Source: Gammaproteobacteria bacterium Gsub (GTDB lineage Bacteria > Pseudomonadota > Gammaproteobacteria > PS1 > Pseudothioglobaceae). From it: a stretch of 64,000 nt of DNA. Where the stretch lies: contig JYIN01000010.1 in NCBI GenBank assembly GCA_002007405.1, positions 62,001 to 126,000 of the forward strand, written 5' to 3'. A program made the translations under genes and the position numbers. Position 1 is the first letter of the stretch. Every line of letters begins with the position of its first letter. Positions 1 to 11,682 of the stretch are shown here, in pieces. Under the pieces are notes generated by a model. That model saw nothing but the letters and a program-made list of their open reading frames with translations, made no database searches and had not been told where the DNA came from.

Positions 1-177
1 ATATTGTGCACTTGAAGACAAGAAAGGCATTTCTGAATCCCAACCCCCAAGCTTGGTTAAACCAGCACGAAAAAAGGCATCGGCTACATACAAACGCACA
101 AATAATTTGAAAATATCGTCTGTATATTTGTGTATCAAAATAAATATTTTATTGTATAAGTTTATGATTTTATTCAT
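1..177 (-). CDS. DoxX family membrane protein (partial, C-terminus outside window)
   Basis: The minus strand reads 59 codons from an ATG at 177 to the window edge. The visible part has a short amphipathic N-terminus and then a segment containing LYVADAFFRAGLTKLGGWD, typical of the first helix of DoxX proteins (small four-helix membrane proteins). The start overlaps the end of bufC by 8 nt, so it is the last visible gene of the bufferin operon. DoxX-type proteins often accompany bufferin and Hvf operons, which supports both the family call and the operon. Its role there is not settled; a redox or quinone-linked membrane function is usually proposed. The rest of the protein is not visible. Confidence 0.8.
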   Translation of the reverse strand, partial: MNKIINLYNKIFILIHKYTDDIFKLFVRLYVADAFFRAGLTKLGGWDSEMPFLSSSAQY

Positions 178-727
178 TTTTTTCCTTGTATTGTTGTTGG
201 GTTATTTTTTCTACTAACACTTGTGCACCTTGTTTGTAAATTTTTAAATAATCACCACCAGTAGATAAATCTAATTGTTCGCTATTTTCGTCAAGTTGCC
301 AAATTTTAATAATGGGGTAATTTGAGTGCATAAAAAATACCGCATTCAACGAAAAATAACAGGCCTCATACAAGGCTTCAAATTTTGCCACATCTGCAAG
401 ATAAGGGAGCGTCCGACAGTGGGGGCTATGGTCGATAAAATCTGCAAACTGATGTCCATAGTCGATAATATTACCAGTTTTTGAGGGATGAGTTTGGATA
501 AATTGCCTGCTTAGCATGTTAAAAAAATCCTCACCCACCAAGCGTTTAACACAACTATAACTATTGCCAAGTGCTTGTGTCAAACTGGCAAAATATTGAT
601 GATGGTAAATGTTCATTAAATCTGCGGCAGAAAAATTGGCATTACCGATATAATCCTGAGTGGTGCTAGGTTCTATCACATTTTGATAGAAGTTTTGTTG
701 CAGGTGTTTGAGGGTTTTATGTCTCAT
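170..727 (-). CDS. bufC: BufC/HvfC-type partner protein of an MNIO RiPP enzyme (DUF2063)
   Basis: The 185-aa protein has the DUF2063 N-terminal helical domain (LQQNFYQNVIEP near residues 9-20, then helices through about residue 100) and a short C-terminal part. Members of this family are partners of DUF692/MNIO enzymes and help present the precursor peptide. The gene begins inside the end of bufB (11-nt overlap), so the two are probably translationally coupled, and it runs into the doxX gene. Pfam once labelled the family putative DNA-binding; given this operon, a RiPP-partner role is far more likely. The product should be cytoplasmic, as no signal peptide or membrane segment is seen. Confidence 0.85.
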   Translation of the reverse strand: MRHKTLKHLQQNFYQNVIEPSTTQDYIGNANFSAADLMNIYHHQYFASLTQALGNSYSCVKRLVGEDFFNMLSRQFIQTHPSKTGNIIDYGHQFADFIDHSPHCRTLPYLADVAKFEALYEACYFSLNAVFFMHSNYPIIKIWQLDENSEQLDLSTGGDYLKIYKQGAQVLVEKITQQQYKEKNE

Positions 728-1532
728 CTAATAAAGTTTGTGCTTTGTTTGCCTCAGATAATAATACTGATAAATCAGGAATATCAGTGTCCCATTCAAT
801 CAAAGTTGGTTTATTACCGATTTTTTTTAGCGTGGTTTGATATAAATCCCACACTTTGTCAGCGACTTTTTGAGAATGGTCATCAATCAGAATAACACCT
901 TGTGGTAGTTTCTTTCGAGTATGCCCTGCCAAATGAATCTGTAACACATCATCAACATCAACATTGTTGATATAATCAGTGGCTTGATACCCATGATTAA
1001 AACAACTGACAAACACATTATTCACATCAAATAATAACCCGCAACCCGACAAACTCGGCAGAGCTGAGAAAAATTCCCATTCGGGAATATTAGACTCTCT
1101 AAAACGCAGATAAGAAGAAGGGTTTTCAAGCAGAATTTGACATCCCAAAAAATCTTGCACCTGTTTGATTTTATCTGCAAAATAATGCAAAGACTTAGTC
1201 GTATAAGGCATTGGCAATAAGTCATTTAGATAATTGCCGTCAATACTAGACCAGCTGAGGTGGTCAGAGACTAAATCTGGTTTAAAACGCACAATAGTAT
1301 CTTTTAAATTTTGTAAATGTTGGAGGTTAATTTTATCAGCCGAGCCTAACGAAAGCCCGATACAGTGCAGACTCAGAGGATAATTATCAGCAATTTTCTC
1401 CAGCTGATAAGTGGCAAGATTATCAAAGAAAAAATTCTCACTATGCACCTCAAACCAATTAACCGCTGGGCGGGTATCTAATACCTGTTGCAAGTGCAAA
1501 TGCCGAAGCCCAATGCCTGCACCTTTAATCAT
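717..1532 (-). CDS. bufB: MNIO family RiPP-modifying enzyme BufB (DUF692)
   Basis: This 271-aa TIM-barrel enzyme has the DUF692 pattern: EVHSENFF near residue 28, SDHLSW near 90, LENPSSYL near 137, FDVNNVF near 170, QIHLAGH near 199 and LIEWDTDIP near 248. The spaced His, Asp and Glu residues fit a multinuclear iron site. Characterised relatives oxidise cysteines in a precursor peptide, giving thiooxazole or oxazolone-thioamide groups that bind copper. Likely substrate: the BufA peptide encoded at 2149-2400, whose four core cysteines are the targets. The gene follows the rhodanese gene by 6 nt and overlaps bufC. The enzyme assignment is firm from the motifs; the exact modification is inferred from the family. 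Confidence 0.9.
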   Translation of the reverse strand: MIKGAGIGLRHLHLQQVLDTRPAVNWFEVHSENFFFDNLATYQLEKIADNYPLSLHCIGLSLGSADKINLQHLQNLKDTIVRFKPDLVSDHLSWSSIDGNYLNDLLPMPYTTKSLHYFADKIKQVQDFLGCQILLENPSSYLRFRESNIPEWEFFSALPSLSGCGLLFDVNNVFVSCFNHGYQATDYINNVDVDDVLQIHLAGHTRKKLPQGVILIDDHSQKVADKVWDLYQTTLKKIGNKPTLIEWDTDIPDLSVLLSEANKAQTLLDET

Positions 1533-1538
1533 TGGTTA

Positions 1539-1979
1539 TTACCAAAATTTATACCAAGGCTTACCACTGCCTGCAGGGATTTTTGTAGTCGCCAGCCCTT
1601 TATCGATCCAGCCATAATTGATGCCCCTATCCAGCTCAAAAATATTACTATATTGGGTTTTTTTATCCAAAAAACGACCAATGGTTTTAGTGCGATTTGC
1701 GTGGGCACAAACCAAAATAAACTCAGCTTCTTTATCAGGTACGATTTTTGCCAAATCAGCCAGCCATTTTTGGACATTATATTTGCCTTTAGTATCAAAA
1801 AAAGTCAATTTATGTGAGCCGGGAATAACACCATATTTTTGATATTCATCAGCCCTGCGCACATCAATAATTGCCACGCCTAATTTTTGTTTTGCTTGCA
1901 CTTGCCCAGCAGAAAGTGCCCTAAAATCGGCCATGACATGCAAACTAACGCCAAATAATGCCAGTATTATTATTCTCAT
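1539..1979 (-). CDS. Secreted rhodanese-domain protein in the bufferin operon
   Basis: A 146-aa protein with an N-terminal signal peptide (about residues 1-17) and a single rhodanese domain. IIDVRRADEYQ lies near residue 37, and the active loop reads C91-AHAN-R96-T, matching the C-x4-R pattern of catalytic rhodaneses. It should therefore be a periplasmic sulfurtransferase or thiol/persulfide-handling protein. It lies between the bufA terminator and bufB, 6 nt before bufB, and so appears to be part of the operon. A rhodanese is not a standard member of bufferin operons. In a sulfur oxidiser it could handle periplasmic sulfane sulfur or protect the bufferin thiol chemistry; that is inference. 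Confidence 0.8.
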   Translation of the reverse strand: MRIIILALFGVSLHVMADFRALSAGQVQAKQKLGVAIIDVRRADEYQKYGVIPGSHKLTFFDTKGKYNVQKWLADLAKIVPDKEAEFILVCAHANRTKTIGRFLDKKTQYSNIFELDRGINYGWIDKGLATTKIPAGSGKPWYKFW

Positions 1980-2070
1980 TTACCCACATAACTCGGATAT
2001 CCCACAATAATTGTTAAAATTTTACCTAAAGCCAACAATATTTTTTTTTCATTATTTACGCTACAAAAAA

Positions 2071-2111
2071 AATCACAATCAAGCAAAGAGGATGGGTGCT
2101 TGATTGTGATT
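2071..2111 (-). terminator. Intrinsic terminator/attenuator between bufA and the rhodanese gene
   Basis: A perfect 15-bp inverted repeat (arms 2071-2085 and 2097-2111, 11-nt loop) is followed, in the bufA transcription direction, by a run of seven T residues. This is a strong rho-independent terminator lying just after bufA and about 90 bp before the rhodanese-bufB-bufC-doxX genes. No clear second promoter is visible after it, so the downstream genes probably depend on partial read-through, which would give excess precursor peptide over enzyme. Confidence 0.85.
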
Positions 2112-2148
2112 TAAGTCGGGTGTTGTTAAAAAAAAACAGCAGTCGAAA

Positions 2149-2400
2149 CTAAGACGAGGTTAAACTGCCACCCACTAACTTACCACACAAACCTGCTGGC
2201 AAGGCAATAAAAGCGTCTTTTTGACCGTCAGTTTTTGAACTGCCAGCACAAGACGAGGTTTTGGTAGCACAATCATTTTGACCAGCTTTAACTACACCAT
2301 AACATTTTTCTTTAGCACCCGCAGCACTCGCTTCCATAGCGACAAAGTTAGATCCCAGTAGTGCTAAACTTGCCAAAGTTATTGTTTTCATTTTATTCAT
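2149..2400 (-). CDS. bufA: Bufferin-type RiPP precursor peptide (DUF2282)
   Basis: The start at 2400 is preferred over an upstream codon because AAGGAAAA lies at the right distance and a signal peptide follows at once. The 83-aa product has a signal peptide (residues 1-27, ending ASA-A) and a small core with Cys33, Cys44, Cys51 and Cys72, the four-cysteine layout of DUF2282 proteins. These are precursors of bufferins, exported peptides whose cysteines are modified by the MNIO enzyme and which sequester copper in the periplasm. The gene leads the operon, has its own strong terminator, and is divergent from an ECF sigma factor gene. Copper as the ligand is inferred from the family. Confidence 0.9.
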   Translation of the reverse strand: MNKMKTITLASLALLGSNFVAMEASAAGAKEKCYGVVKAGQNDCATKTSSCAGSSKTDGQKDAFIALPAGLCGKLVGGSLTSS

Positions 2401-2452
2401 TGTTTTTTCCTTATCAGTTAATAAAGCCATTACGAATGAATGACACTATACT

Positions 2453-2480
2453 ATACGGCATACATTACAAATAAGTTTCA
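2453..2480 (-). promoter_or_regulatory. Candidate ECF-type promoter for bufA
   Basis: On the minus strand, TGAAAC (2480-2475) is followed after 17 nt by CGTAT (2457-2453), resembling the general ECF sigma promoter form (GAAAC / CGTA). It lies about 50 bp before the bufA start and in the gap shared with the divergent ECF sigma gene. This fits control of bufA by the neighbouring sigma factor. The match was found by eye in one place only. Confidence 0.5.
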
Positions 2481-2484
2481 CAAA

Positions 2485-3033
2485 ATGCAAAAAGATATTA
2501 ATATCTATTTTAAAAAACTACAAAAAAACAAAAGTCAAAAAACCTTTAAAATTATATATGAGCTTTCAAAAGTGCAACTTTTTGGGGTCATTTTGCGTAT
2601 ATTAAAAAAGCCAGAATTAAGTGAGGATTGCTTGCAAGAGGTTTATGTGAAAATTTGGCATCAATCAAGCAGTTATTGTGAGAGTAAAGCCAGCGTTATG
2701 ACTTGGATGTCTCGTATTGCTAGAAATCATGCGATTGATTATGTGCGTAGGCGGGAATTACCCATTCAGGAGGATTTTGAATTATCCGTTATTAGTGACG
2801 AACAATTAGATTTGTTAGACAATGTAAATAACCAGCAAATTAATAAACAACTAAGCAAATGTTTGCAAAAACTCAAACCTGAAGTGATGAATATTTTATT
2901 CATGTCATACTTCAACGGACTGACTTATGACAACATTGCCCAAGTTTTAGAAATACCCCCAAGTACAATCAAGACTTGGGTGCGAAGGGCGATGCCAGTG
3001 CTTAAAAAATGTATGGAGGACAGCCATGAGTAA
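2485..3033 (+). CDS. ECF RNA polymerase sigma factor (SigK-like)
   Basis: From the ATG at 2485 the product is about 182 aa; an in-frame codon at 2440 is possible but would extend into the promoter region. Region 2 is visible (LSEDCLQEVYVKIWH, then MTWMSRIARNHAIDYVRRR), as is a region 4 helix-turn-helix near the C-terminus (YDNIAQVLEIPPSTIKTWVRR). The following gene encodes a membrane anti-sigma factor of RskA type, overlapping by 8 nt, so this is a SigK/RskA-type pair. It is divergent from bufA, and a candidate ECF promoter precedes bufA. It probably switches on the bufferin operon, and perhaps the YHS gene, in response to an envelope signal. The signal itself cannot be read from sequence. 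Confidence 0.9.
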   Translation: MQKDINIYFKKLQKNKSQKTFKIIYELSKVQLFGVILRILKKPELSEDCLQEVYVKIWHQSSSYCESKASVMTWMSRIARNHAIDYVRRRELPIQEDFELSVISDEQLDLLDNVNNQQINKQLSKCLQKLKPEVMNILFMSYFNGLTYDNIAQVLEIPPSTIKTWVRRAMPVLKKCMEDSHE

Positions 3034-3634
3034 TAATGACTTTATCGCCTTTGAATACGCATTAGGGTTGTTAGATAGGGAAGATAGGCAGGCGATTGAG
3101 AAAACCAACACATTTGAAAAAACACAAAAGCAGTGGCAACTGCATTTGAGTAAATTAAACACACAGGCGCCTTTGGATAAAAAATCCGCACAAAAAATCT
3201 GGGAAAAAATCAATACTCAAATCAAGCTCGAGAAAACCAATATCATCCAAAGTTGGGTGCAATCTTGGCGTTATTTGCTCGTTGGTTTTACTGGTTTTGC
3301 CCTGATTCTAGGTTTTGTTTTATTTAATCAAAAGAATGTTAATACTGAGCTGGGATGGGACATAAGCACTGATTTGTCCAAACAACAATTATTAATTACT
3401 AGAACCACGCACCAACATCTTGACCAAAATAAAGTTTGCGTTTTATGGGTAAAAAAAGAGGGTAGAATAGTGCGTATTGGGCTGATGCCTCAATTTGGTA
3501 AAAAGATATTCAATATCAGTGTAGAGGCGCATTCAATGATTAAAGGCGGGGAAATGATTATCTCATCTGAGGGTAGAGAAAATCAAGCATTAACCCCAAC
3601 TGTTATTGATTATCAACGAAAATGGAATATTTAA
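3026..3634 (+). CDS. Membrane anti-sigma factor, RskA-like
   Basis: A 202-aa protein. The N-terminal cytoplasmic domain (residues 1-80) starts FIAFEYALGLLDRED, like the sigma-binding helix of anti-sigma K factors. One membrane helix spans about residues 83-101. The C-terminal extracytoplasmic part carries an RskA-like pattern: LWVKKEGRIVRIGLMP and a later block on handling of substituents before the end. It should hold the sigma factor encoded just upstream at the inner membrane until a periplasmic signal releases it. There is no CHCC zinc-binding motif, so a direct thiol-redox sensor of ZAS type is unlikely. The overlap with the sigma gene suggests matched expression. Confidence 0.85.
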   Translation: MSNNDFIAFEYALGLLDREDRQAIEKTNTFEKTQKQWQLHLSKLNTQAPLDKKSAQKIWEKINTQIKLEKTNIIQSWVQSWRYLLVGFTGFALILGFVLFNQKNVNTELGWDISTDLSKQQLLITRTTHQHLDQNKVCVLWVKKEGRIVRIGLMPQFGKKIFNISVEAHSMIKGGEMIISSEGRENQALTPTVIDYQRKWNI

Positions 3635-3649: not shown

Positions 3650-4126
3650 ATGAAGAAAATATTATTAATATTTGTATCTTTGTTTAGTTTGCAAGCCTTG
3701 TCATTAGATTTTGTCTATACTAAACATTCAATTTGGGGTAGTGGCAGTGAGGGCAATGAGTACGCCATTGAGGGCTATGATGCGGTAAATTATTTTACTG
3801 AAAATAAACCTGCCAAGGGTAGCCCTGATTTTGCATTTAAATATAAAAACAAAGAATGGCATTTTAAAAACCCCCAGAATTTGGCCCTGTTTAAAGCCGA
3901 CCCACAAAAATATGCCCCTCAATACGGTGGGCATTGTGCTTGGCGAATGGGTGTTGATGGTGTTGGCGTGTATGGCAGCGCTAAAATTTGGACGATTGTA
4001 GATGATAAACTCTATTTAAATTACAATCGGGAAGTGAATGATCGTTGGGTTAAAGATATTCCAGGCTTTATTAAAAAGGCTGACGGTTTTTGGTTAGGTA
4101 AAAATCAATTCAAATCCCTAAATTAA
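3650..4126 (+). CDS. Exported YHS-domain protein
   Basis: A 158-aa protein with a signal peptide (about 1-18) and a YHS domain (about residues 39-105): an AIEGYDAVNYF start, a K-W-x-F core and GGHCAWRMG at the end. YHS domains occur in copper-handling proteins and in many small exported proteins of marine gammaproteobacteria. It follows the anti-sigma gene by 15 nt behind an AAAAGGAG ribosome site, and is closed by a clear terminator. Its place in the same operon as the sigma pair, opposite the bufferin genes, suggests a shared metal or envelope stress role. Metal binding by this copy is not shown. Confidence 0.8.
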   Translation: MKKILLIFVSLFSLQALSLDFVYTKHSIWGSGSEGNEYAIEGYDAVNYFTENKPAKGSPDFAFKYKNKEWHFKNPQNLALFKADPQKYAPQYGGHCAWRMGVDGVGVYGSAKIWTIVDDKLYLNYNREVNDRWVKDIPGFIKKADGFWLGKNQFKSLN

Positions 4127-4171: not shown

Positions 4172-4729
4172 TTATAGAAAATAATCTGCTGATTCAATCA
4201 AATTTTTCCATAAGTAAATGTAAAACGCTGAGGTAATAGAAGTGCCAGCAACAATGCCAATAATAATATTTTTAAATTTAATCCCAATAATGGTTAAAAA
4301 ATAAATCAACACATTGATTGAAATTCCAGGAACAAAACACAGAGCAAAAATAATAGAGATTTCTTTGCTTTTAATTTTATGTTCATAATCAAGGATTTTT
4401 TGTGGCACATTAAAATTTATTTTGTTAGCAAAATTGTAAATAATCAAACAATAACAAACAATTGCCAATTCTAGAGCGAGATAGACTTGCCAAATTGAAA
4501 ACAAATATACCCCAGTAATAACAAAAGCTGTACCCGGAATTAAGGTTAATCCGCGGGTAATTAAAACGGTAATATAAACAATATAAGACCATAAAAAATA
4601 CTCATGGGTTAAGAACGATTTAATCATTTTTGGGCTTAGAAACCCTTCTTGCGAATAGGCATAAGTCAGCAGCCCAAGATTTGCTAAAATGAACAAATAG
4701 AAGATAAATTTTTTGTTAATATTGCTCAT
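4172..4729 (-). CDS. VTT/DedA-like membrane protein (SNARE-associated family)
   Basis: A 185-aa protein with about five hydrophobic segments. The RGLTLIPGTAF motif near residue 60 matches the re-entrant loop signature of VTT/DedA proteins, and a glycine-rich helix (FVPGISINVLIYFLTIIGIKF) lies near residues 130-155. Family members move or flip lipids or small substrates across the inner membrane. It starts inside the end of the upstream ATP-grasp gene (14-nt overlap), so it is the last gene of the cupin/ATP-grasp operon. Its job there could be export or lipid-linked transport of the operon product; that is inference. It ends just before a shared terminator. Confidence 0.7.
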   Translation of the reverse strand: MSNINKKFIFYLFILANLGLLTYAYSQEGFLSPKMIKSFLTHEYFLWSYIVYITVLITRGLTLIPGTAFVITGVYLFSIWQVYLALELAIVCYCLIIYNFANKINFNVPQKILDYEHKIKSKEISIIFALCFVPGISINVLIYFLTIIGIKFKNIIIGIVAGTSITSAFYIYLWKNLIESADYFL

Positions 4730-5615
4730 TATCAGTGAGTTTTATTTTATTGAGTTGGGTATAAAAATCAGATAAATCTTCAGATTTTCCGTATCTAGGC
4801 TTGTCGTGCATTTTAAGAAAAGGACGCGAATTTAGCTCTAAAAAAATGCAAGCTTGTTGGTCAAAATCAATCTCAATACCCTGCTTACAAATCATATCAA
4901 TACCCAAAATATTGGCATCAAAATAATTTAATATTCTTTGTAAATCCCGTTTGTTTTTTTTGCTCAACCTGTTTTTATCAATAATTTCTACGCTGGCACC
5001 TAATTTGAGTGAGATTTTATGGTGTAAATACACCCGATCTCCAGCATTGAGGACCGTGGATAAATTCATTTGTTGTTGTTTGAGGTGTTTTTTAATGCTT
5101 GAATTTTTAGGAATGGGATTGATAACCTGGGCGAGATTCATTTTTTTTCTCAGCCAATTTTCATCGTCAATCAGACTATCAATCGTATTGATGCCATCAC
5201 CAACAACAAAAGGAGGGTAACGCCTAAGTATTGACATAACGCCCAACTTAGTCATAACCACACGGTAATTTTTACCTAATAAATACTGTTCAATCACACT
5301 GACTGGCCAAAATTTTTTAACCCCGATACTGGCTGTGAATAATTGCCAAATATTTTGAATAGGAAAATATGCCCCCCTTGAAAACCCCCCTACATTCGGT
5401 TTAACAACCAGCGGAAAACCATATTTTTGGTAAAATCTAAATGCAACTAACGGATTAACAAAAGTGATGCCTTTAGCATAGGGTAGATTATTTTGGGCAA
5501 AAGCCAGCCTCGCTTGTGCTTTTGATCGGCAAGCACGACGCACTGTGAGTGGGTTATAATCACTACAGTTAGGCAAAAAAAAGTGGGATAAAAATCTATG
5601 GAATAAATGCACCAC
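4716..5615 (-). CDS. ATP-grasp ligase, cyanophycin synthetase/GshF-like
   Basis: A 299-aa protein read from a GTG start. It shows an ATP-grasp fold resembling the N-terminal ligase half of cyanophycin synthetase and the C-terminal half of bifunctional glutathione synthetase GshF: FPLVVKPNVGGFSRG near residue 67, VVGDGINTIDSLI near 137, LNAGDRVYLHHKISLKLGA near 190, and an ILGIDM then FLELNSRPFLKMHDKP block near 240-275, which supplies metal-binding acidic and Asn residues. Such enzymes join an amine to a carboxylate using ATP. It sits 3 nt after another ATP-grasp gene, with a cysteine-dioxygenase-like cupin two genes upstream. The substrate is unknown; an amino-acid-derived product is the reasonable guess. 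Confidence 0.75.
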   Translation of the reverse strand: MVHLFHRFLSHFFLPNCSDYNPLTVRRACRSKAQARLAFAQNNLPYAKGITFVNPLVAFRFYQKYGFPLVVKPNVGGFSRGAYFPIQNIWQLFTASIGVKKFWPVSVIEQYLLGKNYRVVMTKLGVMSILRRYPPFVVGDGINTIDSLIDDENWLRKKMNLAQVINPIPKNSSIKKHLKQQQMNLSTVLNAGDRVYLHHKISLKLGASVEIIDKNRLSKKNKRDLQRILNYFDANILGIDMICKQGIEIDFDQQACIFLELNSRPFLKMHDKPRYGKSEDLSDFYTQLNKIKLTDNEQY

Positions 5616-5618
5616 GAT

Positions 5619-6422
5619 TTAGATTTTTGATTGATAGTGCTTAATCACTTTTTTGAAAAACACCAAGCGATTAAAATATTGCTTAGGAATGGTGTTACTA
5701 ATCTTAACCAAATGATACATACTCTCTTTAATGAATTTATGTTTGGCTTTTTTATCCGTATCTTTATCTAACAAATTAATCGGAAATGGGGCAAATAAAT
5801 TCACCTCAATAATATGGAACACGCCTTGAATCAAATCTTTTTTGGAGTTTGCTCGTAGCCCAATTCGGGCAATACGAAAATTGGGCAATTCTTGCAAATG
5901 TTGTTGGATATTTTGCTTTTGGATAGTGGAAAAACCAGTGCTACAATCTTGATAATACACCGCTGGATTGTTAATATTATTAATCGGATACAGTTCTTTA
6001 GAATTATTGATTGCTTGTGTAATTGTGAAGGTAGTATATCGCTTAGGATAATTAACATCACGAATGTAGAAAATTTCATATTCTTGCGCCTCAGATGCTA
6101 CTTGTTGAACAATATAGGGGATTTTACTGTTGTTCTCGTTAAAAGCCAAAAATTCAGCCTTTGAATCAACCCTGATAATGCCGTTTGAATTTTGCCCCCA
6201 CTCTGGTTTTAAAAATACGGGGAATTGAGTGGGCAGATTGTTGCGATTAAAATAGACTTGTTCCAACCGCCATTTGATTGGGATATAACGATCTATATCA
6301 ATTTTAGAATAAAACCCTTTTTTCTTGTTATACCATTCGGCATTAATCTGAAAATAATACCAAGCAGGAATGCCTAAGCGTATTGACCAATAAATATAAT
6401 AAAAAATCAGCTTAAAGGTCAA
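5619..6422 (-). CDS. Second ATP-grasp-like protein of the cupin operon
   Basis: A 267-aa protein, apparently from a TTG start that overlaps the stop of the cupin gene (TTGA). FPVFLKPEWGQNSNGIIRV near residue 68 looks like the ATP-grasp nucleotide loop, and a later segment, FHIIEVNLFAPFPINLL near residue 205, resembles the metal-binding strand. The first 25 residues are hydrophobic and could lie against the membrane. It differs from its ATP-grasp neighbour, so two separate ligation steps or a heteromeric ligase are possible. The family beyond ATP-grasp is not recognised. Confidence 0.6.
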   Translation of the reverse strand: MTFKLIFYYIYWSIRLGIPAWYYFQINAEWYNKKKGFYSKIDIDRYIPIKWRLEQVYFNRNNLPTQFPVFLKPEWGQNSNGIIRVDSKAEFLAFNENNSKIPYIVQQVASEAQEYEIFYIRDVNYPKRYTTFTITQAINNSKELYPINNINNPAVYYQDCSTGFSTIQKQNIQQHLQELPNFRIARIGLRANSKKDLIQGVFHIIEVNLFAPFPINLLDKDTDKKAKHKFIKESMYHLVKISNTIPKQYFNRLVFFKKVIKHYQSKI

Positions 6423-6901
6423 AATCTTTCTCCCTTGTTCGGATCATCTGAATAAAAATGCAGGCTTAGGCTTTTTTCTTGAGTACTGATTTGGTGAATA
6501 TAATTATCCATTTTGCCTTTAATACCCTTATTGTATAGATATTCCCCCTCATTCAAGGCACTATTTTTAAGTTCTAAAAATGGGTCTTTAGCAAAGTTTT
6601 TATAATTTAGACGACCTCTAATAACATACATAAAAGAAAAATCTGGATGCCCATGAATAGGCGTTGTTGCGTTTTTATCCCAATTTAGTAAACCCAACCA
6701 ACAACTTTTATTATTGATAATAATATTTCTTGTATAACTGTATTGCTCGGTAGGCAAATTTTCTAAATTTAATGCTGGTATTAACATTTTTATTTGCTCA
6801 ATTGCCAGAGCACATTCTCCCTTGTATAGTAGCGCACACAACCTTTCAAAATCAAAATCTGTTGAGGTTGTATAATTATAATTTGTAATTTTTTTTAACA
6901 T
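6419..6901 (-). CDS. Cysteine dioxygenase-type thiol dioxygenase (cupin)
   Basis: The 160-aa protein matches the bacterial cysteine dioxygenase family. It has R58 in YTRN, the iron-binding pair H83-G-H85 in PIHGHPD, the third ligand H136, and the SLHFY block (H148, Y150) equivalent to the catalytic His-Tyr of cysteine dioxygenase. The position equal to the mammalian crosslinked cysteine is Phe90, so there is no Cys-Tyr crosslink. It should oxidise a small thiol (cysteine, 3-mercaptopropionate or a related compound) to a sulfinate. It is the first gene of an operon with two ATP-grasp proteins and a VTT protein, just downstream of an IS30 relic. The exact thiol is not certain. Confidence 0.8.
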   Translation of the reverse strand: MLKKITNYNYTTSTDFDFERLCALLYKGECALAIEQIKMLIPALNLENLPTEQYSYTRNIIINNKSCWLGLLNWDKNATTPIHGHPDFSFMYVIRGRLNYKNFAKDPFLELKNSALNEGEYLYNKGIKGKMDNYIHQISTQEKSLSLHFYSDDPNKGERF

Positions 6902-6904
6902 TTA

Positions 6905-7466
6905 GTAAACTCAACCTATAAGCAACACCACCACGGTTTAAAAAACAGTTCTTACCAGTCGAGTAAAAACCTCCAAAGGGTCTTTTATGCCCCAAACACT
7001 TTCTTAGGTCTATTATTCATTAAATTGAACACCCTAACCACTTCTTTTACATTCTATTGTCCAAACCTAATAGATTTTGGGCATAAACTGCCTTAATAAG
7101 CGATTAGGATTCTCATTTAATTCCCTCCCTCTCCTTCAATATCAGGCAGAAGCAATCTACTATACAATCTAATTTTGGGCTCTGCTGAAGTTAGTGCGGC
7201 AATTTTATCCGATTGACCCATCATATCTGTCCAGCCACCAACACGAAGATGACTATCTACACACTAGGTTGCTCATCTATCAACTTTATTGGTTAATTTG
7301 ATGGCTTTGTTTTTATCTTTTGTCTGCTACATGAGAGTCCGCGGGCTTTCTTGTATAGTTAAATGGGTATATTTTTGCATTATCATTTTATTAGTTGTCA
7401 GCTAGAAAAAGATGGTTGCTATCTCATTTGAGTGCACAAGAAGTGTTGCGACTAGGGTGTGGGTTC
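6905..7466 (-). mobile_element. Decayed IS30-family element (transposase relic)
   Basis: On the minus strand the region begins like an IS30 transposase (MQKYTHL from an ATG near 7378) and, after stops and rearranged sequence, holds ENPNRLLRQFMPK (around 7100-7060) and then, in another frame, VVRVFNLMNNRPKKVFGA (near 7045-6990). Both are C-terminal signatures of IS30 transposases. The edges near 6907 (AAACTCAACCTATAAGC) and 7445-7466 look like degenerate inverted ends. The element has several stops and frame changes and is certainly inactive. A second relic with both ends in common lies at 63416-63683. A central stretch (about 7120-7260) reads open without matching IS30 and may be a foreign insert. 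Confidence 0.75.
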
Positions 7467-8846
7467 AATTTTTTTTAGTTGTGTTCCTGTTGTAATTAAA
7501 CGCTCAAACAATTGGGTTAGCTTGAATTTATCCAATTTAATATTACTAATCAATAAGCGAAATACCAATTGCTTGCCAATATATCCAAGCGACAGTAATG
7601 TTGCTTGCTCTTTGTGCAGTTGATCGCGTAGGCGCTGGTTAAACGCATTTGTATTATGGGCAGTTTTAAAACGAAAACAAACATTAAATGAAAATCGTTT
7701 TGCCACCATTTCAAGCGCAGTACTTTTGTTAATAAAATCCTCAGCAAATTTTGCCAACGCATAATAATTTTCCACCCGCTTGGCAAAACCATATTGGGTA
7801 TAAAATTTCCAATCTAAAAACCATTTTAAACTATCCACGCGGCGTCCGCATTGCAAAGAAGTAGTGCCCAAATCATAATCTAAATTTCTAAAAATATAAC
7901 TATTGTCTCCATTACAACAAGTGAATGAAAGTAAATTTTGATGATTAAGCAACAAAAAATTACACATTAAATTACTGCCAAGCATTTTATGAAAATCCAT
8001 AGTAAAAGAATCCAACTGATCAACATTAGGTAAAAATTTTGCTTTGAGTTTTTTACTCATCAGCGCAGCTCCACCCCAAGCGCCATCACCATGCAACCAA
8101 AAATTGTATCGCTTTTTAAGGTTTAATAGATCTGTTATATTGTCATATGCACCACGCACTGTTGTGCCCAGCGTGGCGCAAACAAAAAATACAATCCCGC
8201 CCTTGTTTTGGGTGGTTTGAATAGATTTTTCAAGTGCTGTGGTGTCTATTGATCCATTTTCAAAAGTTGGAATTTTGATTAAATTATTACTACCAATACC
8301 TAAGATATTAACGGCTTTATCTAATGAATAATGTGCCTCAGCATTAACAAAAGCAAACAATGGTTTTTGCCCAAATAAACCCTCTTTTTTTACTGGCTCT
8401 AACACCTGATTGCGTGCTACCATCATCGCAATCATATTCGCATTTGACGAGCCTGTGGTCATTTGTCCTTCGCCATTTTTAAAACCAACCAATGTTAGCA
8501 TTTGCCTAAGCATGTAGACTTCCATCAATGTTGCAACTGGAGCCGACTCAAAAGTGCAGGCAGAGGTATTGCTTAAAGCGGTAATAATCTCACCCGCAAT
8601 TGAGGGCAGATTAGCGCCAGACCACATGCGGTTAGCAAAATTTTCATGTTTGGTGTTGGGCGAATATTCTAAATATTGTCTAATCCAAACAAATAACTGT
8701 TCCCAGTCTTGGTAGCCCTGTTTATTTAAATCCAGAATTTTACTGAGCGCATCAACTGATTGATAATCAATGGGCCGCTTGTTGGTCTTAAAGTTAGATT
8801 GTTGTAGGGTTTGTGCTATTTTTTGTAGAATTTCATTTTCTTGCAT
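7452..8846 (-). CDS. PLP-dependent amino acid decarboxylase (group II)
   Basis: A 464-aa fold-type I enzyme. It shows TGSSNANM near residue 131, H172 stacking on PLP (AHYSLDKA), HGDGAWGG at 252-259 with the PLP-binding Asp254, and the Schiff-base Lys287 in DFHK. Group II members decarboxylate glutamate, cysteine sulfinate, aspartate, diaminobutyrate or aromatic amino acids, and sequence alone does not settle which. Because a cysteine dioxygenase-like gene lies about 0.5 kb downstream on the same strand, cysteine sulfinate to hypotaurine is an attractive option. It is the last gene of a seven-gene minus-strand operon, 11 nt after a DoxX-like gene. Its 3' end touches the IS30 relic but appears intact. 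Confidence 0.85.
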   Translation of the reverse strand: MQENEILQKIAQTLQQSNFKTNKRPIDYQSVDALSKILDLNKQGYQDWEQLFVWIRQYLEYSPNTKHENFANRMWSGANLPSIAGEIITALSNTSACTFESAPVATLMEVYMLRQMLTLVGFKNGEGQMTTGSSNANMIAMMVARNQVLEPVKKEGLFGQKPLFAFVNAEAHYSLDKAVNILGIGSNNLIKIPTFENGSIDTTALEKSIQTTQNKGGIVFFVCATLGTTVRGAYDNITDLLNLKKRYNFWLHGDGAWGGAALMSKKLKAKFLPNVDQLDSFTMDFHKMLGSNLMCNFLLLNHQNLLSFTCCNGDNSYIFRNLDYDLGTTSLQCGRRVDSLKWFLDWKFYTQYGFAKRVENYYALAKFAEDFINKSTALEMVAKRFSFNVCFRFKTAHNTNAFNQRLRDQLHKEQATLLSLGYIGKQLVFRLLISNIKLDKFKLTQLFERLITTGTQLKKIEPTP

Positions 8847-8857
8847 TGAATGGGTTT

Positions 8858-9358
8858 TTAGCTGTGCTTTTTATTTAAAAACATCATAACCAAACCTAAA
8901 ATTAAAATAGACAAGGCGGCATTAGCCAAACCTGTATCTACACATGAATTAGGTGCTAAAAATACTGCCTCACAAGCCGCCTCATTTGCCACCTGCCAAG
9001 TCGGATTCCAGCCCAATGGTGTAAAAATATGAAAAAATACTGCACCTGCCATAATGAAAGATGCCATCAAACCACCGATACAATGTAGTTTTTTTCTGTG
9101 TTTCCAAAAAACAATCGGTACCAGTAACAATAAAGATGTTGTCAACTCGGCTAAGCCAATTAAAATAGCACCATATTGAACAAACAATTCACCTAATGTG
9201 GTATTTATAGTATCGCTCATCCAAACACCAATAGTGGTAAAAATATGCTGAGGTTCTAAAGCAGACTCGTCAAATTTGTAAAACAAAGAAACGATAAAAA
9301 CATATGACACCCACAAGGCAATCAACCAACTGATAACAGCTTTTATTAGGCTATTCAT
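8858..9358 (-). CDS. DoxX-like four-helix membrane protein
   Basis: A 166-aa protein with four predicted membrane helices (about residues 5-27, 62-84, 92-112 and 142-160). The GLAELTTSLLLLVP and LMASFIMAGAVFFHIF segments resemble the second and third helices of DoxX relatives. The start at 9358 follows a GGGAGGG ribosome site. It precedes the PLP decarboxylase gene by 11 nt and follows the TrpD-like gene by 39 nt. A hydrophilic loop with two cysteines (about residues 128-138) lies before the last helix. Function is unknown; the family call is by pattern only. Confidence 0.55.
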   Translation of the reverse strand: MNSLIKAVISWLIALWVSYVFIVSLFYKFDESALEPQHIFTTIGVWMSDTINTTLGELFVQYGAILIGLAELTTSLLLLVPIVFWKHRKKLHCIGGLMASFIMAGAVFFHIFTPLGWNPTWQVANEAACEAVFLAPNSCVDTGLANAALSILILGLVMMFLNKKHS

Positions 9359-9397: not shown

Positions 9398-10459
9398 TTA
9401 TAAACGATTTAGAGCTCTGCCTGAATTTAATATAGCCCTGACTTCGTTGCTGGCAGTAGCCAAGCTAGCAAATTTTTTCGTATGCCAAAGAATCAAAGAT
9501 GCTGATAATACTAGCCCATCATAGAACATACCGCCTTCACCCGAGAGTGCTGCCTTGCCTAATTGAACGGTATAATCTGCTAATTTGGCAATATCATGTT
9601 GCACATCTAATCCCGTTGGAAAGGCAATAGCACGATTATTTTGATGGATGCCAAGCGCTGTTGGATCAATATCAATACGATCTTTTTCATCAGCACCTAT
9701 ATATGAAATTGTCAAACCTTTTTGCCGCAGAGACGGCACCACACCGCCCTCAACACCGCGTACCAATAAAGCACTATCCATACCAGCAGCATTCGCTAAC
9801 TGGGCATAAATCGGTGGGTAGGGTTTGTGTACATAACCTAGAATTGAATGTGTCTTTTTAGCACGCAATGGACCAATCAAGGTTTCTACAGTGTTAATCA
9901 CGCTGCGTTTAACGATTTGATTGCGTAATGGAATAAGGTTGTGCAAATCCTGACAATAACTACGCTGATCAATATATGACCAACCAATGGTGCGGTTTTC
10001 CAATCGTGCCTTAGCAGCAGTTATTGAATGTTGTGCATCTAAACCCAGTGCTTGATTGATATGATGGTGGGTCAAGCCAAATTTAGGTGAGATACTGTCC
10101 AAACCATGAATCACTGTTGGCAAGCCCAATTCTGCCAATACGGGTGGTAGAAAAGAGGAAATAGGGATAGAACGATTATAACCACTGTAAGGATCACCCA
10201 AATCAACCAACGCATCGACATTAACTTGCTGTTTGTCAGTTTGTGCCAAAATCGCTGCCAAAACCCCTTTGACTTCTTCAAGTGTTTCGCGCTTCATACG
10301 CAGGGCAATGAGAAAGATCCCAGCTCGTACATCATCAATTTCACCTCTTAAAATAGCTTGCATTCCGTCTTTGGCTTCCTCAAAATCAATATTTTTACTT
10401 AAATCAGGACCAGTAGCAATGCGCTGAATAATTGAGTGCATGAGTGTTTTGGAATCCAT
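9398..10459 (-). CDS. TrpD-like phosphoribosyltransferase-fold protein (YbiB/TrpD2 type)
   Basis: A 353-aa protein with the fold of anthranilate phosphoribosyltransferase: an N-terminal helical domain (DGMQAILRGEIDDVRAGIFLIALRMK at about 30-55) and a C-terminal alpha/beta domain with SVINTVETLIGPL near 187 and a late GEGGMFYDGLVLSAS block. The canonical PRPP loop (GTGGD) reads LGDPYSGYN, and the anthranilate KHGNR loop reads IHGLDS, so normal TrpD activity is very unlikely. It is close to the TrpD2/YbiB branch, some members of which bind nucleic acid. The gene abuts a Rieske ferredoxin gene with no gap, suggesting a joint role. Its actual reaction is unknown. Confidence 0.75.
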   Translation of the reverse strand: MDSKTLMHSIIQRIATGPDLSKNIDFEEAKDGMQAILRGEIDDVRAGIFLIALRMKRETLEEVKGVLAAILAQTDKQQVNVDALVDLGDPYSGYNRSIPISSFLPPVLAELGLPTVIHGLDSISPKFGLTHHHINQALGLDAQHSITAAKARLENRTIGWSYIDQRSYCQDLHNLIPLRNQIVKRSVINTVETLIGPLRAKKTHSILGYVHKPYPPIYAQLANAAGMDSALLVRGVEGGVVPSLRQKGLTISYIGADEKDRIDIDPTALGIHQNNRAIAFPTGLDVQHDIAKLADYTVQLGKAALSGEGGMFYDGLVLSASLILWHTKKFASLATASNEVRAILNSGRALNRL

Positions 10460-10756
10460 TTAAACCTCTATATAAATTTTATTATTTTCTTGTTTGATTG
10501 GATAAATGGGCATATTTTCAATATCTGTTTGCGAGCTCTCCCCGGTTGCTAAATCAAAACTAAACCCATGTAATGAGCACCTAATTCGCCCGTCTTTTAA
10601 ACAGCCTAAAGTCAGTTTAATGCCTTCATGCGGACAGCGGTTTTCTCCACAATACAAACACCCATTATTCATGGCAATAAATAAATCTTTTCCTTCCAGC
10701 TCAACCTCTACCATAGTGCCTTCTTTAGGTGCTGAATCAAGTGCTTTGACCCACAT
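10460..10756 (-). CDS. Small Rieske [2Fe-2S] ferredoxin-like protein
   Basis: The start at 10756 (MWVKALD) is chosen because it falls 4 nt after the stop of the upstream gene; longer versions would overlap it. The 98-aa protein is a single Rieske domain with C41-x-H43 and C60-x2-H63, sixteen residues apart, and a final beta strand IKQENNKIYIEV. Soluble Rieske proteins of this size act as electron carriers for dioxygenases or as nitrite-reductase small-subunit-like proteins. Two extra cysteines (C33, C36) lie before the cluster motif. No oxygenase partner is nearby, and the adjoining TrpD-like gene is its closest functional companion. Confidence 0.85.
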   Translation of the reverse strand: MWVKALDSAPKEGTMVEVELEGKDLFIAMNNGCLYCGENRCPHEGIKLTLGCLKDGRIRCSLHGFSFDLATGESSQTDIENMPIYPIKQENNKIYIEV

Positions 10757-10760
10757 AGTT

Positions 10761-11366
10761 TTAAAAGAAACGCCAAATATTATTACGGTCCAACTGAGAT
10801 CCACATTGGTCGAGTTGCTGCTTATAACGGATGGCATTTTTCTCAACTACTTTAGCAATTTTGATTAACCACGGCTTATCTTGGTAAGATTTTTTGTTAA
10901 AACCGCCGTGTCCTTCATGATAAGCCAAATATTGGTTATAAGCATCTGATTTTTTAACCCCCGAACGCTGGTTTGTTTGTTGAATATACCAGCCTGTAAA
11001 ATCAGCTGTATCCTCAAAATCATCACGCTCAGCATTATGATTGCTTGTATCTCGTTTATACCATTCCCAAGTATCATCAACAGCCTGTGCAAAGCCATAA
11101 GCCGAAGTCTGTCTAAACCATGGAATGACACCAAACAATTTTTTTCTAGGAGGCTTTGCATCGGATGCAAAACGCGATTCTTGATAAATAATGGCTAATT
11201 GTACAGCCGCAGGTGCGCTGTATTTTTTTTCACTGGCTCTAATAGCTTGATACCAGCTGACTTCTTCGTCTAAAAGCGTGCAGATGTTATCAACCTTAAT
11301 GGGTGGCGTAGAAAAACAACCACTGAGGATTAGGGTCAAAAATAGGGCTAATATTTTTTTTTTCAT
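10761..11366 (-). CDS. SLT-domain lipoprotein (lytic transglycosylase-like)
   Basis: A 201-aa protein with a lipoprotein signal (LILSGC, lipidated Cys17). The catalytic-type glutamate E63 lies in IIYQESRF, followed by SAYGFAQA at 89-96, the lysozyme-like SLT signature, and YLAYHEGHGGF further on. It should cleave peptidoglycan glycan strands from the periplasmic face of a membrane. The tight spacing (10 nt after the cold-shock gene and 4 nt before the Rieske gene) shows co-transcription, but a functional link to those genes is not evident. Confidence 0.85.
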   Translation of the reverse strand: MKKKILALFLTLILSGCFSTPPIKVDNICTLLDEEVSWYQAIRASEKKYSAPAAVQLAIIYQESRFASDAKPPRKKLFGVIPWFRQTSAYGFAQAVDDTWEWYKRDTSNHNAERDDFEDTADFTGWYIQQTNQRSGVKKSDAYNQYLAYHEGHGGFNKKSYQDKPWLIKIAKVVEKNAIRYKQQLDQCGSQLDRNNIWRFF

Positions 11367-11376
11367 TACCTTAGTC

Positions 11377-11682
11377 TCATCGAAAAAATACTTGATAAAC
11401 TACAATAATTTGCACCATAAACCCAACTGCAAATAAACCTTTAATCACACCATCTGATAATCTTGATTGATTAGAGTCTGGATTTTCTAATTGCACATTA
11501 ACTGCCACTAAGCCTTTTTCAGAATTTTGGGTATTAAATATAACTCGGGTGTCAATATTAAGGCGTGATTTATTATAAACATTAGTTTGATGCACAAAAT
11601 ATCTTTGACCATCATCACCAACAATAAAACCATAACCCTTAGTGCCGAATTGTGCAATTGTACCTGCTATTTTTTTTGCCAT
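11377..11682 (-). CDS. Cold-shock domain protein with C-terminal membrane helix
   Basis: The 101-aa protein starts with a cold-shock fold (residues about 4-65) carrying KGYGFIVGDDGQRYFVH, which combines the RNP1-like and RNP2-like strands that bind single-stranded nucleic acid. A linker rich in polar residues leads to one hydrophobic helix at about 80-99. This architecture resembles CSD proteins with a DUF1294 membrane domain, but shortened to one helix. It would tether nucleic-acid binding to the inner membrane. It follows the tpm gene by 8 nt. Its target RNA or DNA is unknown. Confidence 0.75.
   Translation of the reverse strand: MAKKIAGTIAQFGTKGYGFIVGDDGQRYFVHQTNVYNKSRLNIDTRVIFNTQNSEKGLVAVNVQLENPDSNQSRLSDGVIKGLFAVGFMVQIIVVYQVFFR

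Follow-up and report, generated by a model that had tools for sequence, protein, structure and literature searches.

The window analyzed here, a stretch of 64,000 nucleotides from Gammaproteobacteria bacterium Gsub (contig JYIN01000010.1, positions 62,001 to 126,000), carries a gene cluster in which a predicted route from cysteine to hypotaurine stands next to two ATP-grasp proteins and a membrane protein. As judged from their sequences, a decarboxylase (DEC) and a cysteine-dioxygenase-like cupin (CUP) quite probably synthesize hypotaurine together; that the two ATP-grasp proteins (AG1 and AG2) act as ligases on this hypotaurine is a proposal to which we give an even chance, and we place the synthesis of a hypotaurine-containing amide by the whole cluster on the same footing. 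An earlier note on this DNA had described a four-gene operon (the cupin, the two ATP-grasp proteins, and a VTT membrane protein) and guessed at an amide containing cysteine sulfinate or a sulfonate, which might be exported or linked to a lipid. Its open reading frames, coordinates, and tight spacing were borne out, all four genes being present on the minus strand at 4172–6901; however, the conserved unit proved to be larger, adding DEC, a DoxX-like gene, and often a YHS gene. Because the decarboxylase, which had been overlooked, adjoins the cupin, the ligases would more probably receive hypotaurine (or taurine) as their sulfur substrate than cysteine sulfinate.

The cupin gene (6419–6901; 160 aa) is followed by AG1 (5619–6422; 267 aa), which has a TTG start and a 4-base overlap with the cupin gene, by AG2 (4716–5615; 299 aa), which begins with GTG 3 bases after AG1, and by the VTT (DedA-like) gene (4172–4729; 185 aa), which overlaps AG2 by 14 bases. 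DEC, a pyridoxal phosphate (PLP)-dependent acidic amino acid decarboxylase and probable cysteine-sulfinate decarboxylase (CSAD) of 464 aa, is encoded on the same strand at 7452–8846. DEC and CUP touch or overlap in relatives and lie 550 bp apart in the window, where the gap (6902–7451) holds a decayed insertion-like fragment; its translation includes NNRPKKVFG, which by eye resembles the end of an IS30-type transposase. All five genes are under purifying selection, with most pairwise dN/dS values at about 0.06–0.2; the most similar CUP and VTT pairs, whose dS is low, gave higher ones.

The cysteine dioxygenase (CDO) signature that the earlier note had seen in the cupin was borne out by single residues and by a profile match to CDO structures. 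CUP itself scored slightly below the cut-off of Pfam CDO_I (E = 1.1e-4; 22.2 bits against 23), and its relative in locus L073 exceeded the cut-off with 24.6 bits. A profile of 22 relatives matched rat and human CDO1 in the Protein Data Bank (PDB) at 4e-13 to 4e-12 and the Bacillus subtilis CDO at 2e-10, and reached only 4e-4 with 6xb9 ("cysteine dioxygenase type I protein"), which we take to be a 3-mercaptopropionate-type enzyme. The iron-site histidines H83 and H85 (HGH, 83–85) and H136 are invariant in the 22 relatives and correspond to H86, H88, and H140 of rat CDO, with H136 (IH136) placed by motif, since the HMMER alignment slips at that point. Y56-[TS]-R58 aligns with Y-T-R-N of CDO1, so that R58 corresponds to the carboxylate-reading Arg60 of Arg-type CDOs; this position is Lys in one symbiont (L045). 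In the outer triad S146-x-H148-x-Y150, S146 and H148 are invariant and Y150 nearly so.

DEC matched Pfam Pyridoxal_deC at 3e-69, and the PDB entries nearest to its profile were human CSAD (2jis, 6e-103), then mouse CSAD, GADL1, and GAD67; since GADL1 and GAD67 follow closely behind CSAD, this ranking by itself cannot identify the substrate. In GAD, GADL1, and CSAD, the size of the pocket is set by Ser, Tyr, or Phe, and GADL1 binds its substrate through Gln120 and Arg494 (PMC7367687). The corresponding pocket of DEC consists of R73 (at the Gln120 position), the size-setting W75, S95, C97, R430 (at the Arg494 position), and the PLP lysine K287, and R73, W75, S95, K287, and R430 are invariant across 23 sequences. 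W75 and S95 give DEC the aromatic residue and Ser of CSAD and GADL1 in place of the Ser and Asn of GAD, and a pocket that combines Trp with Ser speaks for a small acidic substrate other than glutamate. Agnello and coworkers reportedly gave Phe/Ser/Tyr as the triplet by which CSADs recognize cysteine sulfinate; W75/S95/C97 departs from this triplet, and we therefore term DEC CSAD-like instead of classing it as a CSAD. A further type of acidic amino acid decarboxylase, with a Lys/Leu/Tyr/Thr/His pocket and no CDO neighbor, was observed in four genomes with AG1 (L167, 5302–6696; L168, 6150–7565; L170, 5411–6838; L171, 5761–7203).

The two ATP-grasp proteins differ in how far they resemble known enzymes. 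For AG2, the proposed likeness to cyanophycin synthetase and GshF ligases was supported: it matched NCBIfam TIGR02068 over the ATP-grasp part only (E = 1e-36; 126 bits against a cut-off of 850, AG2 having no Mur-ligase-like second domain of cyanophycin synthetase), its profile matched 7wac at 1e-32 and GshF 3ln6 at 1.5e-23, and its structure model (predicted local distance difference test, pLDDT, 92) matched 7ta5 at 4e-23 in Foldseek. Its Mg-ATP set is complete, with K72, G77, G81, D240, E260, and N262 invariant in 57 sequences, in agreement with the alignment to 7wac. AG1, correctly called divergent in the earlier note, gave only weak ATP-grasp matches in Pfam and NCBIfam; its AlphaFold model (pLDDT 90) found D-Ala-D-Ala ligases and synapsin as best Foldseek matches and gave VIA Z scores of about 13 to synapsin, cyanophycin synthetase, LysX, and RimK, which, being shared by several families, show the modeled fold and not a function. 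K40, K72, G76-Q77-N78, G81, E206, and N208 are invariant in AG1, and G188 stands at the place of Asp257 of Ddl in a motif alignment (not a structure overlay). One usual Mg-binding acid thus seems to be missing, and a usable ATP site, which is fully present in AG2, is only partly confirmed in AG1. AG1 and AG2 are not near paralogues, as a profile comparison aligned only the Lys/Gly-loop segment. Selenocysteine in AG1 was likewise rejected: three genomes were flagged "1 TGA", the alignment holds no internal stop, and the flagged codon is most likely the terminal one.

We next consider the conservation of this arrangement. A single AG2 sequence gave no match among the genome contigs; a profile built from an AG1 alignment and searched against named genomes found 162 relatives, from which 80 loci were kept for neighbor analysis, and a search of viral contigs found none. 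The neighbor clusters comprised AG1 (78 loci), AG2 (75), MFS (54), DoxX-like (48), YHS (36), decarboxylase (25), cupin (25), DinB (19), VTT (18), and TANGO2-like (9) proteins, and the AG1 and AG2 homologues were adjacent in most loci, across several phyla. DEC and CUP occurred jointly in 22 of the 80 and, where present, touched each other and usually AG1 as well. The conserved unit can be written as [YHS][DoxX-like][decarboxylase-cupin]-AG1-AG2-[VTT or MFS], and it was found in Gammaproteobacteria, Desulfobacterota, SAR324, and one Arcobacter. In a first sample of the window's family, ten genomes had AG2 (the window's included, the others at 67–70% identity), and most of these ten kept the order decarboxylase, cupin, AG1, AG2, VTT. 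The adjacency of the four genes is due to conservation and not to chance: linkage is the rule in relatives, and DEC and CUP are unlinked only in a minority. In the AG1 tree, linked decarboxylase-cupin pairs appeared in Desulfobacterota, SAR324, Sedimenticola/Chromatiaceae, and the symbiont family, and a 28-row gammaproteobacterial clade, mostly heterotrophs, was without them. An Arcobacteraceae metagenome-assembled genome (L053, 10001–12254) carries a symbiont-type AG1-AG2-VTT cluster. Its AG1 falls within the symbiont clade of the Gammaproteobacteria (96/82), and no other copy was found in 249 genomes of its phylum, which suggests that the cluster was probably acquired by horizontal transfer.

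The decarboxylase also followed AG1 across whole genomes. The two were compared by Fisher tests, which ignore the relatedness of the genomes: among 369 Gammaproteobacteria, AG1 (strong matches) occurred in 11 and the decarboxylase (E < 1e-90) in 7, with 6 in common (p = 9e-10), and among 52 SAR324 genomes, 5 had AG1 and all 4 with the decarboxylase were among these 5 (p = 2e-5; G431 is taken to belong to this phylum from its close relatives). The seventh gammaproteobacterial decarboxylase genome, G372, has a completeness of 71%, and the gene extends to the end of its contig. In the 83 genomes of the window's family, tallied from tables, an intact decarboxylase was present in 19 and an intact AG1 in 22, with 18 shared. 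In three genomes (G224, G291, and G082), the decarboxylase lies on another contig than AG1, beside a CDO-like cupin, and the pockets are of another build: Q/W/S/Y in G224 and G291, and Q/F/S/Y, which equals the CSAD triplet, in G082. By their sequences, these pairs look like separate recruitments of one chemistry, and its recurrence in pairs of different build is the best indication of a ligase pathway that draws on the product of the decarboxylase and the CDO. The wide synteny and the genome-wide co-occurrence together support the earlier suggestion of one shared pathway.

On this basis we propose the following pathway. Free cysteine would be oxidized by the cupin to cysteine sulfinate, which DEC would decarboxylate to hypotaurine. 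AG2 would then use ATP to activate a carboxylic acid, either an amino acid or a short peptide, and couple it to the amino group of hypotaurine or of taurine formed from hypotaurine, and AG1 may perform another ligation or act as the partner of AG2. The VTT protein here, or the MFS protein in other lineages, would carry a precursor or the finished product through the membrane, and the DoxX-like and YHS proteins may contribute a redox step. Bacteria inside or on animals rich in hypotaurine or taurine could lose the first two steps and take the amine from outside. The sequences themselves show the protein families, how well these are conserved, and that they occur together. The substrates of the first two steps are strongly inferred, ligation to hypotaurine is proposed with moderate confidence, and transport by the VTT or MFS protein is only weakly indicated.

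Gene losses in symbionts bear on this scheme. In the Bathymodiolus heckerae symbiont BHECKSOX2 (L015/L051), the decarboxylase and cupin genes are joint pseudogene remnants (L015, 14430–14965) and the AG1, AG2, and VTT frames are open; in B. brooksi SOXC (L044), both are lost and AG1-AG2-VTT is intact. Such losses fit a supply of the amine by the host, and vent animals contain much hypotaurine (PMC10548688). Several observations weigh against the proposed pathway, in addition to the relatedness that the Fisher tests ignore, the Mg-binding acid seemingly missing from AG1, and the two pocket positions of DEC that depart from known CSADs (R73 for Gln and C97 for Tyr). In Thiodubiliella endoseptemdiera (G462; L075), AG1 and AG2 are broken (10001–11461) and both the decarboxylase and the cupin gene are intact. 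Roughly half of the AG1-AG2 clusters, if not more, lack a nearby DEC-CUP pair, most of them in heterotrophic Gammaproteobacteria. We scanned for a CDO in 32 genomes that have AG1-AG2 and mostly no adjacent cupin, and 26 of them had no match to the cluster-cupin profile; this profile does not pick up canonical CDOs (G402 is an example), and Pfam CDO_I was therefore used for a second search. It in turn overlooks members of the cupin family, for example in the window's own genome, and it matched only 5 of the 32. G430 (L054, where only the cupin is missing from the cluster) and G406 (L065) carry DEC, and neither profile detected a CDO in them. The distribution in the AG1 tree would fit production of the amine by autotrophs and anaerobes and its import by heterotrophs; should external taurine not be the explanation, the ligases would have another substrate and the DEC-CUP pair would be an addition to the cluster.

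The latter would agree with the best surviving alternative, in which one operon holds two modules, DEC and CUP making hypotaurine or taurine as an end product (an osmolyte, antioxidant, or sulfide buffer, perhaps for the host) and AG1, AG2, and the transporter making an unrelated product. We consider this rather unlikely overall. The common clusters without DEC-CUP, mostly without a CDO genome-wide, speak for it, and taurine synthesis by CDO and CSAD is already known in bacteria, according to passages of PMC8153620 and PMC10356861 that cite Agnello 2013. The intact DEC beside broken ligases in G462 points the same way, as it implies that hypotaurine has a use without AG1-AG2, and the losses in L015/L051, L044, and L075 indicate that the two halves are partly separable. 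However, DEC tracks AG1 genome-wide even where it is unlinked and of another pocket type, and linked DEC-CUP pairs occur in several separate lineages of the AG1 tree.

It is less probable still that DEC makes β-alanine from aspartate (or taurine from cysteate), that the ligases build a β-alanine or taurine dipeptide, and that the cupin is accessory. GADL1, which is almost as close to DEC, uses aspartate (PMC7367687), and the departures at R73 and C97, the DEC genes without a CDO in G430 and G406, and the four AG1 genomes with another decarboxylase type (K/Y/T/H) would suit such a product; yet DEC adjoins a CDO-like cupin in most genomes, and so do the three unlinked, differently built decarboxylases. 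Modification of a protein, peptide, or lipid head group by AG1 and AG2 in the manner of RimK or graspetide enzymes, with VTT or MFS handling the lipid, draws on ATP-grasp relatives such as RimK, LysX/ArgX, and PsnB and on the action of VTT proteins on membrane lipids in other systems, but we judge it improbable, as AG2 is nearer in sequence to cyanophycin synthetase and GshF than to RimK and no conserved small precursor stands out in the neighbor clusters among open reading frames of at least 90 aa.

The proposed hypotaurine pathway resembles known systems in its parts. Agnello et al. are said to have described, in 2013, a cysteine dioxygenase with a cysteine-sulfinate decarboxylase in Synechococcus PCC 7335. 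The taurine pathway of this type likewise has a CDO-like cupin directly beside a GAD/CSAD-family decarboxylase with an aromatic residue and Ser in its pocket; in contrast, two ATP-grasp proteins and a transporter follow here, and in DEC Gln is replaced by Arg and Tyr by Cys. AG2 aligns with cyanophycin synthetase (7wac, 7ta5) and GshF (3ln6) over the whole ATP-grasp domain, including all ATP/Mg residues, but it is a stand-alone protein of 299 aa with its own conserved N-terminus and without a Mur-ligase or GshA domain. AG1 shares its predicted fold with D-Ala-D-Ala ligase, synapsin, LysX, and RimK (Z about 13) at an identity of only about 8–15%, with one Mg acid apparently missing. The operons of Iyer et al. 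2010 (PMC2922099) also combine a cupin with ATP-grasp ligases, with a small peptide as predicted product, but they carry a MetRS-like protein or another oxygenase-cupin with lysine monooxygenase; the families differ, and assignment of the cluster to these cupin-MetRS/ATP-grasp operons was ruled out. A search of the open-access literature found no description of the present gene set.

The remaining genes of the unit are membrane and accessory proteins. The last gene of the operon is a VTT protein, as had been claimed (Pfam VTT_dom, 36.4 bits against a cut-off of 33.9, E = 8.5e-9). An MFS protein takes its place in most other lineages, and the two were never found together in the 80 loci, as if both fill one role. 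The DoxX-like membrane protein (8858–9358, minus strand; weak DoxX_2 match) is encoded 11 bases upstream of DEC, and its family adjoins AG1-AG2 in 48 of the 80 loci. The YHS-domain (seleno)protein family member (3650–4126, plus strand; NCBIfam NF041384, 3e-41, above the cut-off) is convergent with VTT, and its family is near AG1-AG2 in 36. In Osedax symbionts and a few other lineages, a VTT domain is fused to a MerA/lipoamide-dehydrogenase-like flavoprotein beside AG1 (L108, 7424–9589; also L097, L112, L117, L061, and L096). In Colwellia, Neptunomonas, and others (L084 and L104, 12915–14290), the MFS gene is followed by genes of the DinB and TANGO2 families; such genes precede AG1 in the Arcobacter locus L053. 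Farther out in the window (170–3634), genes resembling a bufferin-type copper cluster (DUF2063-like, DUF692-like, rhodanese-like, and a small Cys-rich protein) were identified by eye; this block adjoins a sigma factor and an anti-sigma factor, and a similar block follows the cluster in several relatives (L019 and L022).

The window's genome is 1.37 Mb, and its family, from matching contigs and the AG1 tree, takes in Ruthia, Vesicomyosocius, and the thiotrophic symbionts of Bathymodiolus; the gene set is retained even by clam and mussel symbionts with genomes reduced to about 1 Mb. Free hypotaurine binds sulfide or sulfane sulfur to give thiotaurine, and hypotaurine, like thiotaurine, is a characteristic solute of animals from vents and seeps. 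As a long shot, the product might be a small hypotaurine-bearing peptide whose sulfinate binds sulfide or sulfane sulfur, serving marine bacteria as a new low-molecular-weight sulfur carrier that chemosynthetic symbionts and their animal hosts would exchange. Culturable carriers (Psychromonas, Colwellia, Neptunomonas, and Endozoicomonas) allow the product to be sought by mass spectrometry and gene deletion. The little-studied pair of reactions from cysteine to hypotaurine is now tied to two unassigned ligase families that recur jointly in marine bacteria of several phyla. Taken together, the set suggests a new sulfur metabolite in the sulfur-oxidizing relatives of deep-sea clam and mussel symbionts and in scattered marine bacteria, and a symbiont pathway that makes and conjugates hypotaurine would bear on who produces the hypotaurine and thiotaurine of vent and seep animals.

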